Source: Cerasicoccus arenae
Lineage (GTDB): Bacteria; Verrucomicrobiota; Verrucomicrobiia; Opitutales; Cerasicoccaceae
DNA length: 64,000 bases
Direction: 5' to 3'
NCBI RefSeq assembly: GCF_014651635.1
Contig: NZ_BMXG01000005.1
Coordinates: forward strand, 62,001 to 126,000
Of this stretch, positions 5,253 to 43,704 are shown piece after piece. Position numbers and translations under genes: made by a program. The notes beneath the pieces were generated by a model. It was not told the DNA's origin. It saw nothing but the letters and a program-made list of their open reading frames with translations, and ran no database searches. Each line of letters starts with the position of its first letter. Position 1 is the stretch's first letter.

Positions 5253-6227
5253 TTAGCAGATTTCCAAGGCCTTCTTGACAATGCGAGCGGCGTCAGGAAT
5301 CTGGATTTTTTCCAGAGGCATGGAGTAGATCTGCGGTGCATCAATGGCGCTGACACGCTTGACGGGGGCATCAAGGTGGTCGAAGGCTTCGTCTTGGATG
5401 ATGCTGGCGATCTGAGCTCCAACGCCGCAGAAGGGCTTGTTTTCTTCGATGTAGACGACGCGGTTGGTCTTCTTGACGCTGGCCAGGATGGTTTCGACGT
5501 CGAGTGGGCGAATTGAGCGTAGATCGATGACTTCGGCGTCGATGTCGTACTTCTCAGCAAGAATGCCTGCGGCTTCCAATGAGGTGATCGCGGCGCGACC
5601 GTGGGCGATCAGGGAGATGTCCTTGCCCTCCTTGAGGATATTGGCCTTGCCCATGGGGATCAGGTATTCCTCTTCAGGCACTTCCCACTTCTGACCGTAG
5701 AGGACAGTGCTTTCCATGACAAAGACGGGGTCATTGTCGCGGATCGCGGTCTTCATGAGACCCTTGGCGTCGTAAGCGTTGGATGGGCAAACGACCTTGA
5801 TGCCAGGATGGTTGGCGCAAAGATTTTCGGGCGTATGAGAGTGCGTCGCGCCGACATTGGTGCCGCCGTTGGCGGGGCCACGGACAACAATCGGGATGTT
5901 CATCAGACCACCGGACATATAGCGGCAGAACGAGCCGTTGTTAAGGAGTTGGTCGAAGGCGACGTAGCAGAAGCTCCAGAACATGAATTCCATGACGGGG
6001 CGCAGGCCAAGCATGGACGCGCCGATGCCCAGTCCGACGAAGCCAGCTTCACTGATGGGGGCGTCGACGAGGCGTTTGTCACCAAATTTATCCCAGAGGC
6101 CCTCAGTGACTTTATAGGCTCCGTTATACTGGGCGACTTCTTCACCCATAACGAAGACGTTGGGATCGCGGGCGATTTCTTCAGCAAGCGCGTCTTTGAC
6201 GGCTTGGCGGTAAGTGATTAGCGGCAT
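5253..6227 (-). CDS. pdhB: Pyruvate dehydrogenase E1 component, beta subunit
   Basis: 324-residue transketolase-like subunit that pairs with E1 alpha to decarboxylate pyruvate with thiamine diphosphate. Family marks: ALAEEIARDPNVFVMGEEV at the N-terminus, DAPISEAGFVGLGIGASM, the potassium/TPP-site region, and the C-terminal transketolase domain with EVIDLRSIRPLDVETI. Length is normal for the alpha2beta2-type E1. It follows pdhA by 19 bases in the same direction and is closed by a strong terminator, so the E2 and E3 genes must be elsewhere. Confidence 0.95.
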   Translation of the reverse strand: MPLITYRQAVKDALAEEIARDPNVFVMGEEVAQYNGAYKVTEGLWDKFGDKRLVDAPISEAGFVGLGIGASMLGLRPVMEFMFWSFCYVAFDQLLNNGSFCRYMSGGLMNIPIVVRGPANGGTNVGATHSHTPENLCANHPGIKVVCPSNAYDAKGLMKTAIRDNDPVFVMESTVLYGQKWEVPEEEYLIPMGKANILKEGKDISLIAHGRAAITSLEAAGILAEKYDIDAEVIDLRSIRPLDVETILASVKKTNRVVYIEENKPFCGVGAQIASIIQDEAFDHLDAPVKRVSAIDAPQIYSMPLEKIQIPDAARIVKKALEIC

Positions 6228-6246
6228 GGTCTGGCTTATTTAAAAA

Positions 6247-7455
6247 TTATTTGTCGAAGATTCCGCCGTCTTCAAAGACGAACCGGCCCTGATTGAGTTC
6301 ATCAATCTCGGGGTCTTGTCCCTTGTTGTCGCTACTCCAGTAGGAGTCGTCGAGGATGGACTCTGCAGGAGGGAAGGGGGATTTTTCAGCGAATTCGGCT
6401 GCTTCGTTGGCCTCCTCGTTGGCTGCTTTATCAATTTCCTTGGCCTGTTCTTCTGTCAGGACGCCTTCTTCGATGAACTGTTTGCGCAAAAGGGTGATCG
6501 GATCCTTGTTGTCCTTGTAGTCGATGATCTCGTCTTTGGAGCGATACTTCTCCGCATTTGCGTCGGCCACGGAATGGCCGCGGTAGCGGTAGGTGAAGAT
6601 CTCGAGCACGGTTGGGCGAGATTCATCGTGGGCGCGTTTGATGGCTTCGTAAGTCTTGGCGCGAACGTCGTAAAGGATGTTGCCGTTAACGGTGTCCCAT
6701 TCCATGCCATAGGCTTCAGCACGTTGGGCGAGGCAGTCAGGGAAAGCGGAAGAACGCTCCTGGCTGGTGCCCATTGAGTAGGCATTGTTTTCGATAATAA
6801 AAATGACTGGTAGGTTCCAGAGGGCGGCGAGGTTATAGGCCTCGTGGACAGCGCCCTGATTGATTGCGCCATCACCCATGTAGGCGAGGCAGCAACCTTT
6901 TTTGCCCTGATACTTGAGCGCGAATGCTAAACCGGTACCAAGGGGAATCTGTCCGCCGACGATGCCATGCCCGCCCCAGAAATTCTTATCAGGCGCAAAC
7001 ATGTGCATGGAGCCGCCTTTGCCCTTGGCGCAGCCGGTGTATTTGCCATACATCTCGGCCATCATGGGTTTGGGATCCATGCCGACCGCGATGGCGTGGC
7101 CATGTACGCGGTATGCGGTGATTACATGGTCGTCGGCCCCAAGTAGCGAAATGGTGCCTACTGCGACTGCTTCCTGGCCTTCGTAAAGGTGGAGGAATCC
7201 CCCAATCTTGCCGGCCTGGTATGAACGCAAGCTGCGGCCCTCAAAGCGCCGGATGCGCACCATGTCGGTGTAAAGGCGGACTTTTTCGTCGGTGCTGAGG
7301 CGTTGATTGATTTCCAGCTGAGCTAGCTCATGGACATCTACGTCCTGCCAGCGTTCAGCTTTGTTTATTGTCTTCGACTTTTTTTTGGCGGTCACGGTGC
7401 GGTGATCGTTCGGATGGATGAATCTATTAGAAGTGGTGTATTTCTCGCCTGACAC
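6247..7455 (-). CDS. pdhA: Pyruvate dehydrogenase E1 component, alpha subunit
   Basis: 402-residue TPP-binding subunit. The thiamine-diphosphate motif is clear: GDGAINQG followed by the conserved NN in IIENNAYSMGTS. HGHAIAVGMDP and RYRGHSVADANAEKYR (region of the phosphorylation loop in eukaryotic homologues) are also present. The start is a GTG at 7455; the first 45 or so residues are lysine-rich and poorly conserved, so a later GTG at 7395 is also possible. The C-terminal 40 residues (after ESILDDSYW) extend past the usual end. First gene of the pdhA-pdhB pair. Confidence 0.94.
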   Translation of the reverse strand: MSGEKYTTSNRFIHPNDHRTVTAKKKSKTINKAERWQDVDVHELAQLEINQRLSTDEKVRLYTDMVRIRRFEGRSLRSYQAGKIGGFLHLYEGQEAVAVGTISLLGADDHVITAYRVHGHAIAVGMDPKPMMAEMYGKYTGCAKGKGGSMHMFAPDKNFWGGHGIVGGQIPLGTGLAFALKYQGKKGCCLAYMGDGAINQGAVHEAYNLAALWNLPVIFIIENNAYSMGTSQERSSAFPDCLAQRAEAYGMEWDTVNGNILYDVRAKTYEAIKRAHDESRPTVLEIFTYRYRGHSVADANAEKYRSKDEIIDYKDNKDPITLLRKQFIEEGVLTEEQAKEIDKAANEEANEAAEFAEKSPFPPAESILDDSYWSSDNKGQDPEIDELNQGRFVFEDGGIFDK

Positions 7456-36029: not shown

Positions 36030-36119
36030 ATACATCAGAGAGCTGATTGATCGTTAAACCGGTTGCATCCGATTTTAGTGATCGATCGTTTATTTCCCAA
36101 AACTAAATAATTGAATTCC

Positions 36120-36638
36120 ATGGCCGAAGCAGAGAGCCCAGTTTTTCTCATCGACGCCTATTCTGAGCCGGTGATCTTGCGTATTCAAGGACGCGCAAGT
36201 TTTCTTAACTGTGCTCCGGTGCGTGATTTCTTTGACCGGGTAGCTGAGATGGGTAAGCGAAGCGTGGTGATTGATTTCCAGGACTGCACTGGGATGGACA
36301 GCACCTTCCTGGGCATTATGGCAGGTGCGGCGCTGGAGTTTCGAAAACTTGAGCCACCGGGCGATTTTACGTTGGTGCGGTTGAGTCAGCGCAATTTGGA
36401 GCTGGTGCGTAATTTGGGTCTTCACCGGATTATGAATGTGGAGACCGGCTCCTTCGATATGTCGTTTAATGCTTCCAATACAGAGTCTCTCAGTAATGCG
36501 AGTCAGACCGAGCGAGATAATGCGGCTATGGTTCTTAAGGCACACGAATGTCTGGTGGAAGCCGATAGCAGCAATCAGAAAAAGTTCCAAGACGTGCTCT
36601 CTTTTCTGCGTTTGCAGGTTGATAAAGACGCACCTTAG
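36120..36638 (+). CDS. STAS-domain protein (anti-sigma-factor-antagonist-like)
   Basis: 172 residues. Residues about 10-110 form a STAS domain: VILRIQGRASFLNCAPVRDFF, then VVIDFQDCTGMDSTFLGIMAGA, where the Ser of the MDS segment is at the place usually phosphorylated in SpoIIAA-like proteins. The tail (about 110-172) is helical and hydrophilic. It could take part in partner switching with a kinase/phosphatase; no such partner gene is adjacent. The downstream gene encodes a hybrid histidine kinase, 331 bases further on. A 10-base motif, ATCGATCGTT, occurs on both sides of the gene (36081 and 36644). Confidence 0.72.
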   Translation: MAEAESPVFLIDAYSEPVILRIQGRASFLNCAPVRDFFDRVAEMGKRSVVIDFQDCTGMDSTFLGIMAGAALEFRKLEPPGDFTLVRLSQRNLELVRNLGLHRIMNVETGSFDMSFNASNTESLSNASQTERDNAAMVLKAHECLVEADSSNQKKFQDVLSFLRLQVDKDAP

Positions 36639-36969: not shown

Positions 36970-38592
36970 ATGACCTCGCTAGCGAACTGGTGGGAGGGCT
37001 TCTGTAGCACTTCCTATCTGCCTCATGAGAACGAATATCCATGGGACCCATCTGTCCTATGGCTTAGTGTCATTGCCAATGGCGTGATCTTCATGGCCTA
37101 TTGTTCGATTTCGTTTGGATTGTTTTACTTTGTGCGTCGTCGCCGCGACCTGATTTACAAGCGGATCTTTGTCTTATTTGGGCTGTTCATCCTGTGCTGC
37201 GCCACGACACACGCCATAGCCATTTTGACGATATGGAAGCCCTACTATTTGTTTGAAAGCATGGTGTTACTGGTGACAGGAGTGGTTTCTCTGGCAAGTG
37301 CCATCGTGATGTTTCGTATGATCCCTGAAGCCCTGCAACTGCCCAATCCGCAGGAATTGCGAAAGACAAAACAGGAGCTGGTCAATGAAGCCCGTAAGAA
37401 AGCTGATGCTGAGTCTGCCAGCGAAATGAAGTCTCAATTTCTAGCCAATATGTCTCACGAAATTCGCACGCCGCTCAATGGGCTACTTGGCGCAATCGAG
37501 CTATTGGGTGACGATCCTGAGCTTCAGGATAAATATCAGACAGAGCTTACCATTGCTCAACAGTCGGGGAAAAACCTAGTTGCTATCATTAATGACATTC
37601 TGGATCTGGCGAAAATTGAAGCGGGCAAGCTAGAAATGCGCTGTATTCCGTTCGACGTTAAATTCATAATTTCGAATATTGTGGAGCTATTTCGGATGAA
37701 GGCGGAAGCAAAGGGTCTTTTATTGTCCGCAAATTTTTCTTCCGATTTACCTGCCTATGTCTATGGCGATCCGGTGCGTCTTTCGCAGATCGTTACGAAC
37801 CTTGTCGCGAACGCGATCAAATTTACCGACAAGGGAAGCGTGAAGATTATGGCCCATCTTGAAGAGGTCAAAGACAACTATGTTGGTCTAAGCATTGTTA
37901 TAGAAGACACTGGTATCGGGATACCGGATAATCGTGTCTCGGAGATTTTTGAAACGTTTCAGCAAGTGCACGGCGAGATAAATGAAGAACGTGGCGGCTC
38001 AGGGCTCGGGTTAGCCATTTCCAACCACCTTGCCAAGAAAATGGACGGCGGTATTATGGTGGAAAGTAAACTGGGCGAAGGTTCCACCTTTACGGTGCTT
38101 GTCCGCTTGTCTGCTCCGAGTGAGATAGCCACCGACTGTAAAGAAGCTCCTCCCGTTTGGCAGTCTCTGGCACCTCCTCCGGGCAAGTCCTCGCTCAATA
38201 TTCTATTGGCGGATGATAATGCGTCTAGCCGTCATATTCTCCGCAAGATGCTTTCAGTGGATGGAGTCAATGTCGCTGCAGTTCAAAATGGATTGGATGC
38301 GCTGACGGCGCACGACGAGAATGATTTCGACGTAATCATTATGGATGTGCGAATGCCTAAAATGGATGGCATCGCTGCTATCCGCAAAATTCGTTCGACT
38401 AAAAAAGATGCTGATAGGCGAATCCCGATTCTCGTTCTGACAGCTTATGCGATGGCAGAGGATCAAGCTCGCGTTATTAGTGCGGGTGCCGACGCTTATT
38501 TGGCGAAGCCCTACCAGCGACAAGAATTAATGACCAAGCTTCAGCAGCTTCTGGACTCGCAAGGCAAAGCTAAGATTGGTGCTGTTCGATGA
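36970..38592 (+). CDS. Hybrid histidine kinase with ethylene-receptor-like sensor domain
   Basis: 540 residues. Residues about 28-125: three transmembrane helices, close in pattern to the ethylene-binding domain of plant ETR1 and Synechocystis Slr1212. Tyr44, Cys77 and His81 (AYCSIS and CCATTH) are spaced exactly like ETR1 Tyr32, Cys65 and His69; ETR1 Asp25 is replaced by Asn37. Then a helical linker, HisKA with NMSHEIRTPLNG (His163), HATPase with LVANAIKF, DTGIGIP and GGSGLGLAISNHLAKKM, and a receiver domain from about 412 with phospho-acceptor Asp459 (IIMDVRMPKMDG) and Lys in AKPYQ. Ligand unknown; ethylene or copper is suggested, not shown. Confidence 0.85.
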   Translation: MTSLANWWEGFCSTSYLPHENEYPWDPSVLWLSVIANGVIFMAYCSISFGLFYFVRRRRDLIYKRIFVLFGLFILCCATTHAIAILTIWKPYYLFESMVLLVTGVVSLASAIVMFRMIPEALQLPNPQELRKTKQELVNEARKKADAESASEMKSQFLANMSHEIRTPLNGLLGAIELLGDDPELQDKYQTELTIAQQSGKNLVAIINDILDLAKIEAGKLEMRCIPFDVKFIISNIVELFRMKAEAKGLLLSANFSSDLPAYVYGDPVRLSQIVTNLVANAIKFTDKGSVKIMAHLEEVKDNYVGLSIVIEDTGIGIPDNRVSEIFETFQQVHGEINEERGGSGLGLAISNHLAKKMDGGIMVESKLGEGSTFTVLVRLSAPSEIATDCKEAPPVWQSLAPPPGKSSLNILLADDNASSRHILRKMLSVDGVNVAAVQNGLDALTAHDENDFDVIIMDVRMPKMDGIAAIRKIRSTKKDADRRIPILVLTAYAMAEDQARVISAGADAYLAKPYQRQELMTKLQQLLDSQGKAKIGAVR

Positions 38593-38661: not shown

Positions 38662-39360
38662 CTATCTTTGTCCGTAGTAGGCCGATGCTCCATGTTTGCG
38701 GAAGAAATGCTTATTACGTAAGTGATCAGGAGCTCCAGTTAAGTCGGGATTCAGAGCGAGACTTTTCAAGGCCATGTCTGCTACGATTTCCAGAGCGCGT
38801 GCATTTTCTACGGACTTGTTGGCGGATGTTCCCCATGCAAATGGGCCATGGTGCTGGACCAAAATAGCGGGAATCTCGGTGGGATCCAGATCCGCAAAAC
38901 GCTCAACGATCACATTGCCGGTTTCCCATTCATAGTCCCCATCGACTTCGTTGACGCTCATGATACGGGTCACGGGGACTGGGCCATTAAAGTAGTCGCA
39001 ATGAGTCGTGCCCAGGCAAGGCAGGTCGCGGCCAGATTGAGCAAAGGCCACGGCATTGCGCGAGTGTGTGTGAACAACCGAGACGACACCTTGGTCAGCC
39101 CAGGCGCAGTAAAGTCTTCGGTGCGTTGGCGTGTCGGAGGAGGGCCGTAGTTCGCCTTCGACAATGCGCCCGTCTAAATCAAGAAGCACCATGTTCTCGG
39201 GGGTAAGCGCGTCGTAGTCGACGCCGCTGGGCTTGATCGCGAAAATGCCGCTATCTGGATCCAGCACGCTAACGTTGCCAAATGTGAGGTCGACGAGACC
39301 GGTCGCCGGAAGTTTACGATTGGCTTCGTAGCAGGCTTCGCGGATGGCTTGGTAGTTCAC
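38662..39360 (-). CDS. araD: L-ribulose-5-phosphate 4-epimerase
   Basis: 232-residue class II aldolase-like epimerase, last enzyme of the L-arabinose pathway (to D-xylulose-5-phosphate). Marks: [12 protein letters not shown] and [16 protein letters not shown] at the start, the metal-binding [30 protein letters not shown], and [20 protein letters not shown]. Length equals that of E. coli AraD. It starts with GTG that overlaps the araA stop by 4 bases (GTGA), indicating translational coupling. Confidence 0.95.
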
Positions 39361-40859
39361 GCTAAACCTTTCAGGCCGTAGCTTGTGGCGTTCCAGCGTA
39401 GCTCGTTGCGGAATTGCCGCAGGTTCGTATCTTGGTCAATGACCAACGCTTCGATGCTAGCCATTTCGGCAAGCATGAGAAGCTGATCCGTCGTCGTCGA
39501 GTAGCTGAAGACTGTGTGGTGGGCACCACCAGCATGAATCCAGGCAGCGGCCCCGGTTTTCAGGTTAGGCATGACTTCCCACAGCACGCGGGCAACGGGC
39601 AACTTCGGCAAGGCTTGTTCGGGCGGGTAGGCGACGACTTCGTTAATGAGTAGGCGGAAGCGATTGCCCATGTCGACGAGAGACGCATTGAGCGCAGGGC
39701 CGGGCTTACCGTCAAAAACAAGGCGGACGGGATCGTCTTTGCCGCCGATTCCCAGTGGATGAATCTCGCAGCTCGGTTTCTTTGTGGCAATGCTGGGGCA
39801 TATTTCCAGCATGTGTGCGCCGAGGCAGCGCATGCCGTCAGGTTTAAAATGGTAAGTGTAGTCCTCCATGAAGGAGGTGCCAGCATCCGCGCCGGCATTC
39901 ATTGCCTTCATGACGCGCAATAGGGCGGCGTGTTTCCAGTCACCTTCTGCGCCAAAGCCGTAGCCATCCGCCATGAGCCGTTGTGCAGGCAGACCAGGAA
40001 GCTGACAGAGCCCGTGAAGGTCCTCGAAGGTGTCCGTGAATGCGCCGAAGCCACCGGTTTCAAGGAAAGAGCGCAGCCCGAGCTCGATCTTCGCTGCGGT
40101 GCGGAGGCTTTCGTGTCGTTCGCCAGCTTTCGCCAACTCAGGCGCGAGATCATAGTTATCTGCGTAGATGCCGCATAGGTCGGTCACTGCGGAATCCGAC
40201 ACGTCGTTAATAACGCCGACGAGATCACCAATGCCATGGGTATTAACGGAGACGCCAAAGACTCTTTCCGCCTCAACCTTGTCGCCATCGGTTACGGCGA
40301 CCTGTCTCATGTTGTCTCCAAAACGAACGACTTTGAGAGATTGGAACTCTGCCCATGCTGCCGCTACGCGGGCCCAAGCCGCTAGGTCATTGCGGATTTC
40401 CGGATCTTCCCAATGGCCAACGATCACGTGGCGAGCCTGCCCAATTCGCGCGCAAATGTGCCCGAACTCTCGCCCTCCGTGGGCGGACTGGTTCAGGTTC
40501 ATGAAGTCCATGTCTATGCTTGCCCAGGGGATATCGCGATTAAACTGCGTATGAAGATGGCAGAGCGGCTTCTGCAATGACTTCAACCCAGCGATCCACA
40601 TCTTGGCTGGGGAAAATGTATGCATCCAGCAGACCATGCCAACACATGCTGGCGTGTTGTTGGCTTCACGGCAAAGTGCGGTGATTTCTTCGGACGTTTT
40701 CAAGCATGGCTTGAATACGATTTTGAGCGGTAACGCGTCGCCGGCATTCAGGGCGGTGACGATGGCATAGCTATCGGCATCGACTTGGCGGAGTGTTTCC
40801 GGGCCGTAGAGATGCTGGCTGCCTGTGGCTAACCAGAGTTCACGAGAAGAGGTTGTCAT
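39357..40859 (-). CDS. araA: L-arabinose isomerase
   Basis: 500 residues, the usual length, converting L-arabinose to L-ribulose with Mn. Clear family stretches: [20 protein letters not shown] at the start, [47 protein letters not shown], and [10 protein letters not shown] with the catalytic Glu. It lies 7 bases after araB and overlaps araD. Confidence 0.97.
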
Positions 40860-40866
40860 GGATGAT

Positions 40867-42603
40867 TTATTCGAAATTTAAGATGTAGTTTGAAACAGGA
40901 GCAGCATCGACGGATTCGGGCTTTGAATCGCAAGTTTTCATCGTCGGTTTGCCATCTTTGATGCGTAGCAGTTCCTTCATAACATTGCCCAAGTTGACCA
41001 CGGATACGCCGCCAAAGGCGTCGTGGACCTTTTCGTAGAGTGCATATATCTCGTTATATATTGCGCGGTTCGCTTCAATCGGCTGGTAGCTTTGGGGGCG
41101 TATGTGAGCCATGACGGCTTGGGCGGAGGCGTAGTCGGTATGGACACCTGCCACAACTGAGGCCCCGATCGCTGCGCCCAGTGCACAAGCTTGTGATGAG
41201 GCAGTGATTTGCATTTCTCGACCAAGAACATCAGCGTAGATTTGCATGAGCAGCGGGTTTTTTTCCGCAATGCCACCAGCGCACACAACGCAGTCGATTC
41301 GCACGCCATAAGCTTCCATGCGCTCAATGATTTTTCGGGCACCAAAAGCGGTTGCTTCGATCAGGGCGCGGTAGATGTCGGCCTGTGTAGTGTGCAAAGT
41401 CTGGCCAAGGAGCAAACCAGTGAGCCGCTGGTCAACGAGCACGGTTCGATTGCCATTGTTCCAGTCAAGCGCAAGTAGTCCATGCTGCCCAGGGTGTTGC
41501 TTGGTGGCTTCCTGAGTTAGTTTGACGTGGAGACTGGGGCTGCCTTGGCATACGCCTTCCACCCACCACTTGAAGATGTCGCCAACGGCGCTTTGGCCAG
41601 CCTCAACGCCATAGCAACCAGGGATGATGGAGCCATTGACGATGCCGCAGATTCCAGGGATTTCCTTAATTTCTTGGTCGGCAGGCATGACTGCACAGTC
41701 GCAAGTCGATGTGCCGATGACCTTGACCAATGTGCCGGGCTTTACCCCGCAAGCGATCGCACCGTAGTGGACGTCCATTAATCCCATTGCGATTGGGATG
41801 CCAGTAGGCAGCCCCAAGCGATGGGCCCAATCGTCACAAAGATGTCCGGCGGTGGCATCTGAGTTGAGGGCCTTCTCGTAGAGCCGGTGACGCAGGTCAG
41901 CGAGCTTTGGATTGAGCATGGCGAGAAATTCCTTGTCCGGCAGGCCATCCCATTCGGGCGCATAAAGCGCCTTATGGCCAGCTGCACAAACACTGCGCTG
42001 AATCTTTAAGGGGTCCGTTATCCCGGAGAGAACGCTGGGAATGAAATCGGAAAGCTCGACCCAACTATGCGCCGCGTCGAAGACTTCGGGGTCAACGTTT
42101 AGGCAATGCCAAATTTTGCTCCACCACCATTCGGAGGAATATGTATCGCCAGTTCGGGCAACGAATTGTGGGCGGTGCTCCTTGGACAGCGCCGTGATGC
42201 GTGCAGCTTCCTCGTGGCTGGTATGATCTTTCCAAAGCCAGCATTGCGCGTTTAGGTTGTCCCTGAATTTCGGGTTGAGCGCGAGTGGTGCGTTCGCTTC
42301 GTCAACGGGTAAAGGGCTGGAACCAGTCGTATCGACTCCGATGCCGACAACGCTTTTGGCGCTAAATAGTGGATCGGCTTTCTTTGCCCGTTCGATCGCC
42401 TGTCTTACGGAGGATTCCAAGCCCTCCAAATAGTCGCCGGGGTGCTGACGTGCTAAGTTCGCATCATGAGGATCTAGAAGAATTCCTTCTTTGCCCGATG
42501 GGTAATGAAGAACGCCTTCGCCGATTTCTGCTCCATCCAAGCAACGTACAACAACGGCCCGCACAGAATTTGTGCCGTAATCAATTCCTAGGGTATAAGC
42601 CAT
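40867..42603 (-). CDS. araB: Ribulokinase
   Basis: 578-residue FGGY-family kinase that phosphorylates L-ribulose. ATPase/sugar-binding segments: [62 protein letters not shown] and [23 protein letters not shown]. The length and GIDYGT(N)SVR start are typical of AraB rather than xylulokinase. ATG at 42603 is used. It follows the LacI-type regulator gene by 36 bases on the same strand. Confidence 0.95.
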
Positions 42604-42639
42604 CAACCCATAATATGGATTACAGCGGCGGTAAAAAGG

Positions 42640-43704
42640 CTATTGGGACTTGACAGTCAAGTGTCCGTGAGTCTGTTGACGAACGGTTTGGCCATTAACC
42701 CAAGTGGGACCAATGAGGGTTGCGCGCGGAAAGGGGGGAGCGCCCTTATCTCCCCGGTGAATCATACCGATGAGCATATCCATTGCAGTCTGTCCGACAA
42801 TGTCATTGTGTTGATTCATGCCCGCCCAATTGGGTCGGGATGCCCGCCATTCCAACTGGATGAGTCCAATGTCTTTCGGGACCTTGAGCCCCATGTCTTC
42901 TAGCCAAGCATGGACTTCATTGTAGAGCGTGAAAATGACATCAGGCTGCTCTTTCTTCAGCCAATCCTGAAAATGCCGATGATTCTCCCGTGCCTTGGCA
43001 ACATCAAAAAATGGTTGTATGCGACGGGATTTGGGCAAGACTGTCTGCCCACTTTGATAACCGGCGCTGAATCGGTGTTCGACAAGTTGGTCGATTACGG
43101 AATCCAAGACTAAGCCAGGTCTCTGATAGCCAAGTTCCAGCGCTTTTTCAAAAGCGCGCAGAGCCAAAATGTGATGATCAACGCATGAAAATGACAACGT
43201 TGGCTCGCGCGTGCGCACGCCGGTAACAACGCAAGGAAACGCCTCGATCACGGGAACGAAGGCTGGCGGTAGTTGATTCTCATTCATCAATCCGACAACT
43301 ACAATACCGCGTATGCCGCGGGTTTGGAGTATATCTATCCAACGTTGGCCAGACATTGATTGATCGAATAGCCATAGTGAATCGATGGCATATCCGAGCT
43401 GTGACGCACGTTCTTTGCAGCCGGTAACGTAGTTGGGAATGGTTGGATGCTCACGAAAGGCGCGGTGGTTTTGATTGCCGTTTATCAGTGCAATGGTAGC
43501 GGATACAGAGTCACTCCCTCGCTTGCGCATTTGGGACATGACTTCGCCGAAGACTTGATTGCGGCGATAGCCAAGCTCATTAGCGACGGCCAAAATTTTG
43601 TTTCGAGTTTCCTCGGATATCGAGGGATCATGCTTGAGCGCAAGCGAGACAGCGTTTTTTGAAACGCCGATTCGGTCCGCTATTGTCTGCATGGTAACTT
43701 TCAT
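42640..43704 (-). CDS. LacI-family regulator, likely for the arabinose operon
   Basis: 354 residues. N-terminal LacI helix-turn-helix (MQTIADRIGVSKNAVSLALKHDPSISEETRNKI, then LGYRRNQV) followed by a periplasmic-binding-protein-like effector domain (SLWLFDQSMSGQRWIDIL, GIVVVGLM). First gene of the leftward unit regulator-araB-araA-araD. An arabinose response is inferred from position; AraC-type and GntR-type AraR regulators are more usual, so the pairing with LacI is noted. The putative operator was not identified in the 36 bases before araB. Confidence 0.85.
   Translation of the reverse strand: MKVTMQTIADRIGVSKNAVSLALKHDPSISEETRNKILAVANELGYRRNQVFGEVMSQMRKRGSDSVSATIALINGNQNHRAFREHPTIPNYVTGCKERASQLGYAIDSLWLFDQSMSGQRWIDILQTRGIRGIVVVGLMNENQLPPAFVPVIEAFPCVVTGVRTREPTLSFSCVDHHILALRAFEKALELGYQRPGLVLDSVIDQLVEHRFSAGYQSGQTVLPKSRRIQPFFDVAKARENHRHFQDWLKKEQPDVIFTLYNEVHAWLEDMGLKVPKDIGLIQLEWRASRPNWAGMNQHNDIVGQTAMDMLIGMIHRGDKGAPPFPRATLIGPTWVNGQTVRQQTHGHLTVKSQ

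Follow-up and report, generated by a model that had tools for sequence, protein, structure and literature searches.

The window, i.e., the whole stretch of 64,000 nucleotides of Cerasicoccus arenae analysed here, encodes a hybrid histidine kinase with an N-terminal membrane domain of the ethylene-receptor type (Table 1). This domain matches the Pfam ETR1_N profile (PF25487) with 103 bits against a curated cut-off of 27 (E=1e-29), and 14 control genomes searched with the same profile yielded no hit exceeding this cut-off; thus, the match is not due to chance. Homology to the sensor domains of ethylene receptors, which an earlier note on this DNA had proposed subject to a profile search, is therefore certain. 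The H, N, G1 and G2 boxes of the kinase and the phospho-acceptor aspartate of the receiver are all intact, as in bona fide bacterial hybrid histidine kinases. Its neighbours are the genes for a peroxiredoxin, an aconitase and a STAS protein, together with an apparent arabinose operon. The STAS gene and the kinase gene are adjacent in three Cerasicoccus species only and no longer so in the next genus; a functional link between their products is putative and unproven, with the adjacency within the genus as its basis. The STAS protein is 92% identical between species, versus 67% for the adjoining kinase.

Table 1. Features at the kinase locus (positions in the window) and the evidence on which each assignment is based.
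Feature	Position	Strand	Basis
STAS-domain protein (anti-sigma-antagonist type), directly upstream of the kinase	36111..36638	+	Pfam
Hybrid histidine kinase, 540 aa: ETR1_N, HisKA, HATPase_c, receiver	36970..38592	+	ORF and Pfam
Glu22; Cys of the PHGxC motif in most relatives	37033..37035	+	Alignment
ETR1_N (ethylene-binding-type) domain, residues 29-124	37054..37341	+	Pfam E=1e-29, AlphaFold2 helices
Asn37 (ETR1 Asp25)	37078..37080	+	Alignment
Tyr44 (ETR1 Tyr32)	37099..37101	+	Alignment
Ser48 (ETR1 Pro36); Pro in three orthologues	37111..37113	+	Alignment
Cys77 (ETR1 Cys65), copper ligand position	37198..37200	+	Alignment
His81 (ETR1 His69), copper ligand position	37210..37212	+	Alignment
Leu100 (ETR1 Lys91 position)	37267..37269	+	Alignment
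HisKA dimerisation/phospho-acceptor domain, residues 153-219, His163 in SHEIRTP	37426..37626	+	Pfam, conserved motif
HATPase_c, residues 266-380, intact N, G1 and G2 boxes	37765..38109	+	Pfam, alignment
Response_reg (receiver), residues 411-524, phospho-acceptor Asp459	38200..38541	+	Pfam, alignment
Arabinose-like operon: araD-, araA- and araB-like genes, LacI-type regulator	38662-43704	-	Translations

The domain was compared residue by residue with an ETR1 reference sequence, the numbering of which agrees with every published residue position used. Tyr44, Cys77 and His81 correspond to ETR1 Tyr32, Cys65 and His69 with a constant offset of 12, so that the exact spacing described in the earlier note is confirmed. 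The residues required for ethylene binding are reportedly D25, Y32, I35, P36, I62, C65 and H69 (attributed to Wang et al. 2006). The count of seven is that of published accounts (PMC6682694, PMC6586836). Five of the seven are present in the C. arenae kinase, where Asp25 is changed to Asn37 and Pro36 to Ser48, and six of the seven are found in its orthologues. The proline-to-serine change is limited to this strain, and serine is also found at this position in several otherwise complete domains. Equally lost in this strain is the N-terminal cysteine of the PHGxC motif, which is thought to aid dimer formation (PMC6682694), and Gly66 is an alanine in Cerasicoccus. The substitution of Asp25 had been recognised in the earlier note, and the alignment bears it out; however, it was treated there as a lone change, whereas it is accompanied by the loss of its proposed partner, Lys91, the position of which is occupied by leucine in the window protein and in all orthologues with asparagine.

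Two AlphaFold2 runs were made, the first of which gave a poor model (pLDDT 61). The second (pLDDT 77.7) predicts three transmembrane helices at residues 27-57, 64-89 and 93-121, with Asn37 on helix 1, Cys77 and His81 on helix 2 and Leu100 on helix 3. The sole geometric statement that we take from the model is that Cys77 and His81, being in an i/i+4 relationship, lie one turn apart in one helix. No solved structure matched the domain by sequence, and none did so by fold (best PDB E=0.42).

Scanning contigs with the full-length protein retrieved mostly unrelated hybrid kinases and a single true orthologue, that of Cerasicoccus frondis, which is also the best named match (67% identity over the whole protein). 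The Asn/Leu form has become fixed across two genera, in four species (L002, the window protein; L013; L014/L015; L005), and the Tyr, Cys and His residues are present in all orthologues. Between the genera, the sensor is the best-conserved domain, with 64-68% identity, where the kinase and receiver domains reach 48-63%, and dN/dS is about 0.09-0.13 for those pairs in which dS is unsaturated. On both grounds, the sensor domain is under constraint by purifying selection. The earlier note had left three options, namely binding of copper and ethylene, binding of another small ligand, or lost binding. These options still cover the possibilities; the conservation seen in this clade lends no support to mere decay of the sensor.

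The same genome encodes a second receptor-like protein, an ETR1_N-PAS kinase on contig C11 (L208:5672-7333; L001/L208), which belongs to a separate branch. This paralogue has Asp25, Tyr32, Cys65 and Lys91, and a tyrosine replaces the copper ligand His69. The corresponding proteins of two sister species, L007 and L008, retain the histidine and have a complete site, whereas two further relatives (L010, L011) have a single, badly eroded copy. Since the window kinase is of the Asn/Leu form and its paralogue has Tyr for His69, C. arenae appears, as judged from its residues, to have no domain carrying the full classical site. The tyrosine of the paralogue and the erosion in L010 and L011 suggest a family prone to losing the site, and this is a point in favour of the main rival to a ligand-binding role, namely that the domain senses neither ethylene nor copper and merely anchors the protein in the membrane and holds the dimer together, with the kinase answering to something else, such as the state of the membrane or a partner protein. 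The latter possibility would also agree with the retention of only five of the seven essential residues and the loss of Lys91 and the N-terminal cysteine. Yet a scaffold would hardly account for Cys77, His81, Tyr44, Ile47, Ile74 and Ser107 being present in every Asn/Leu domain found, nor for the sensor being better conserved between genera than the rest of the protein, and we consider it unlikely.

To place the Asn/Leu form in a broader context, we surveyed bacterial genomes for ETR1_N. The domain was found in 23 of 388 genomes of Verrucomicrobiota, 27 of 398 of Pseudomonadota, 20 of 199 of Planctomycetota, 8 of 148 of Bacteroidota and 4 of 99 of Acidobacteriota, the phylum names being inferred from the records used as sampling centres; plasmids and two targeted families were also covered. 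The sample centred on L038, presumed to be cyanobacterial, seemingly belongs to another phylum (1 of 121 genomes with the domain), so cyanobacteria are represented by plasmid copies only. Pairs of residues at positions 25 and 91 were counted in 139 aligned domains, then restricted to those with intact Tyr, Cys and His. Where Asp25 is present, the pairs are D/K (90), D/R (13), D/Q (3) and D/L (1), i.e., 103 of 107 such domains have lysine or arginine at position 91. Where it is absent, they are N/L (6), E/L (4), E/N (2), N/D (1), S/D (1) and G/K (1), and 14 of these 15 domains lack a basic residue at 91. The association of aspartate with lysine has a Fisher p of 4e-9, computed on rows that are related by descent, and the tree therefore carries more weight than this value.

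In a tree built with both columns excluded, Asp25 changes four times and the basic residue at position 91 six times, and all four losses of Asp25 coincide with loss of the base. These events map to the Cerasicoccaceae clade, a pair of Bacteroidota (L177 and L217, with L220 as a D/L sister), one family of Pseudomonadota (E/L, E/N, N/D) and Rhodovastum (S/D). Thus, paired replacement of Asp25 and Lys91 arose on four or more separate occasions among bacteria, and the Asn/Leu form itself recurs outside Cerasicoccaceae, in L177 and L217. An independent-pairs sign test on the tree did not reach significance and was underpowered, there being too few events. By mutual information, positions 25 and 91 are each other's best partners, ranking 31 among 7626 pairs (z 3.5). 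In the Pseudomonadota family (L136, L231-L236), the pair is replaced in every copy found, by Glu/Leu, Glu/Asn or Asn/Asp, with Tyr, Cys and His intact. A Bacteroidota clade (L215, L216, L219, L221-L227) has arginine at the Lys91 position and retains Asp25; this conservative exchange speaks for a charge pair.

ETR1_N domains are also found in phages. For the viral scan, the profile was made from a tighter alignment, the alignment of 30 domains being too divergent. Kinase-free copies with all seven residues and the lysine are present on the phage-like contigs L212 (5857-6516; IMGVR_UViG_3300024284_000013), L213 (4028-4597; IMGVR_UViG_3300028072_000006) and L214. The L212 and L213 proteins are 68% identical, and the L213 copy lies near a phage tail protein. 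The L214 copy (6001-6420) is a standalone protein of 139 residues with a complete site on a putatively viral IMG/VR contig of 349,660 bases, and another putatively viral contig, of 278,859 bases, encodes an ETR1_N-HWE kinase (L209:2983-4098). Two cultured phages, Maribacter phages Molly_1 (L237:5935-6804, equivalent to MT732451.1 36990-37859) and Colly_1 (L238:2935-3804), encode a 289-residue ETR1_N protein without a kinase, annotated as 'hypothetical' (Pfam E=1.5e-16). It retains Tyr, Cys and His, with asparagine at the Asp25 position and, when its sequence is read against the family, aspartate at the Lys91 position. The gene ends a few bases before that for the endolysin (N-acetylmuramoyl-L-alanine amidase), a position at which one might look for a holin gene.

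In ETR1, Asp25 has been modelled to position His69 and to bond Lys91, with an effect on output, and its mutation is stated by the authors of the AzoEtr1 study to abolish ethylene binding (PMC11819568). According to a 2026 review, ETR1 Asp25Asn still functions as a receptor, its affinity being reduced about 100-fold, and variants of this position are already known from nature (PMC13012798). Hence, the Asn variant as such is not new; what the present analysis adds is the joint loss of the lysine partner and its recurrence, of which a literature search, with the primary Asp25Asn papers outside its reach, found no description.

Taken together, the observation of the earlier note is confirmed and its interpretation partly supported. 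The protein is a membrane sensor kinase whose sensor domain is truly of the ethylene-receptor type and represents a separate Asn/Leu form, and we see an even chance that its ligand sensing is weakened or altered. Judging by the conserved residues, it would be a working sensor, probably copper-loaded, with low affinity or an altered ligand. Cys77 and His81 would hold Cu(I) as in ETR1, and ethylene or another small copper-binding ligand might be bound at lower affinity, because Asn37 would no longer position His81 as Asp25 does. Ligand-driven movement of the helices would then alter autophosphorylation of His163 without the Asp-Lys bridge, and the phosphate could be relayed by way of Asp459 to a partner encoded elsewhere; no dedicated output gene for the kinase was identified. 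Counting against this reading are the statement of the AzoEtr1 authors on Asp25 mutation, the losses of Pro36 and of the N-terminal cysteine in this strain, the alanine at Gly66 in the genus and the low power of the sign test. That the domain senses Cu(I) or Ag(I) itself, and no gas, would fit the retention of both metal ligands without the residues of high-affinity ethylene binding, but no copper-handling genes adjoin the kinase gene, and we hold this to be improbable. To our knowledge, no relative acts as a Cu(I)/Ag(I) sensor. An ordinary high-affinity ethylene receptor, functioning despite the substitutions, seems very improbable: the overall fold and the metal ligands are retained and Ser for Pro36 is tolerated in several otherwise complete domains, but Asp25Asn alone cuts ETR1 affinity about 100-fold according to the review cited above (PMC13012798), and here the lysine partner is absent as well.

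Paired replacement of Asp and Lys should weaken or redirect ethylene sensing. We tentatively suggest, with more doubt than confidence, that ETR1_N domains fall into electrostatic classes according to the coupled pair, i.e., Asp/Lys-Arg, Glu/Leu-Asn, those with the acid shifted to helix 3 (Asn/Asp, Ser/Asp) and neutral Asn/Leu, and that the non-classical ones may be working copper sensors with other signalling and perhaps a non-ethylene ligand. An Asp25-Lys91 bridge has been proposed from modelling to turn ethylene binding into a signal in ETR1. That bacteria have repeatedly replaced both residues jointly while retaining the copper ligands independently supports a shared role for this pair. The variants offer natural receptors for telling affinity and signalling apart, and they caution against annotating every bacterial ETR1_N protein as a high-affinity ethylene receptor.

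Among known systems, ETR1 of Arabidopsis thaliana resembles the window protein in its three-helix membrane domain, the identical spacing of Tyr, Cys and His, and the histidine kinase and receiver. The window protein differs in having Asn for Asp25, Leu for Lys91 and Ser for Pro36, in lacking the paired N-terminal cysteine motif and the GAF domain, and in its intact bacterial kinase motifs. Engineered ETR1 Asp25Asn and the natural variants share asparagine at the Asp25 position and the retained Cys and His, but the engineered receptor keeps Lys91, which the window protein does not have. Slr1212 (SynEtr1) of Synechocystis, as described in the literature, likewise joins a bacterial sensor of the ethylene-receptor type to a histidine kinase; it differs in having a GAF domain by which it also senses light. 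The bacterial reference for our comparison was AzoEtr1 of Azospirillum brasilense (Sp7, L186), which binds ethylene with high affinity (PMC11819568). It is a bacterial histidine kinase with a homologous domain at its N-terminus, its identity to the window protein being within the 28-38% range of distant relatives. Unlike the window protein, it has all seven residues and the lysine as well as a PAS domain, and its response regulator is separate.
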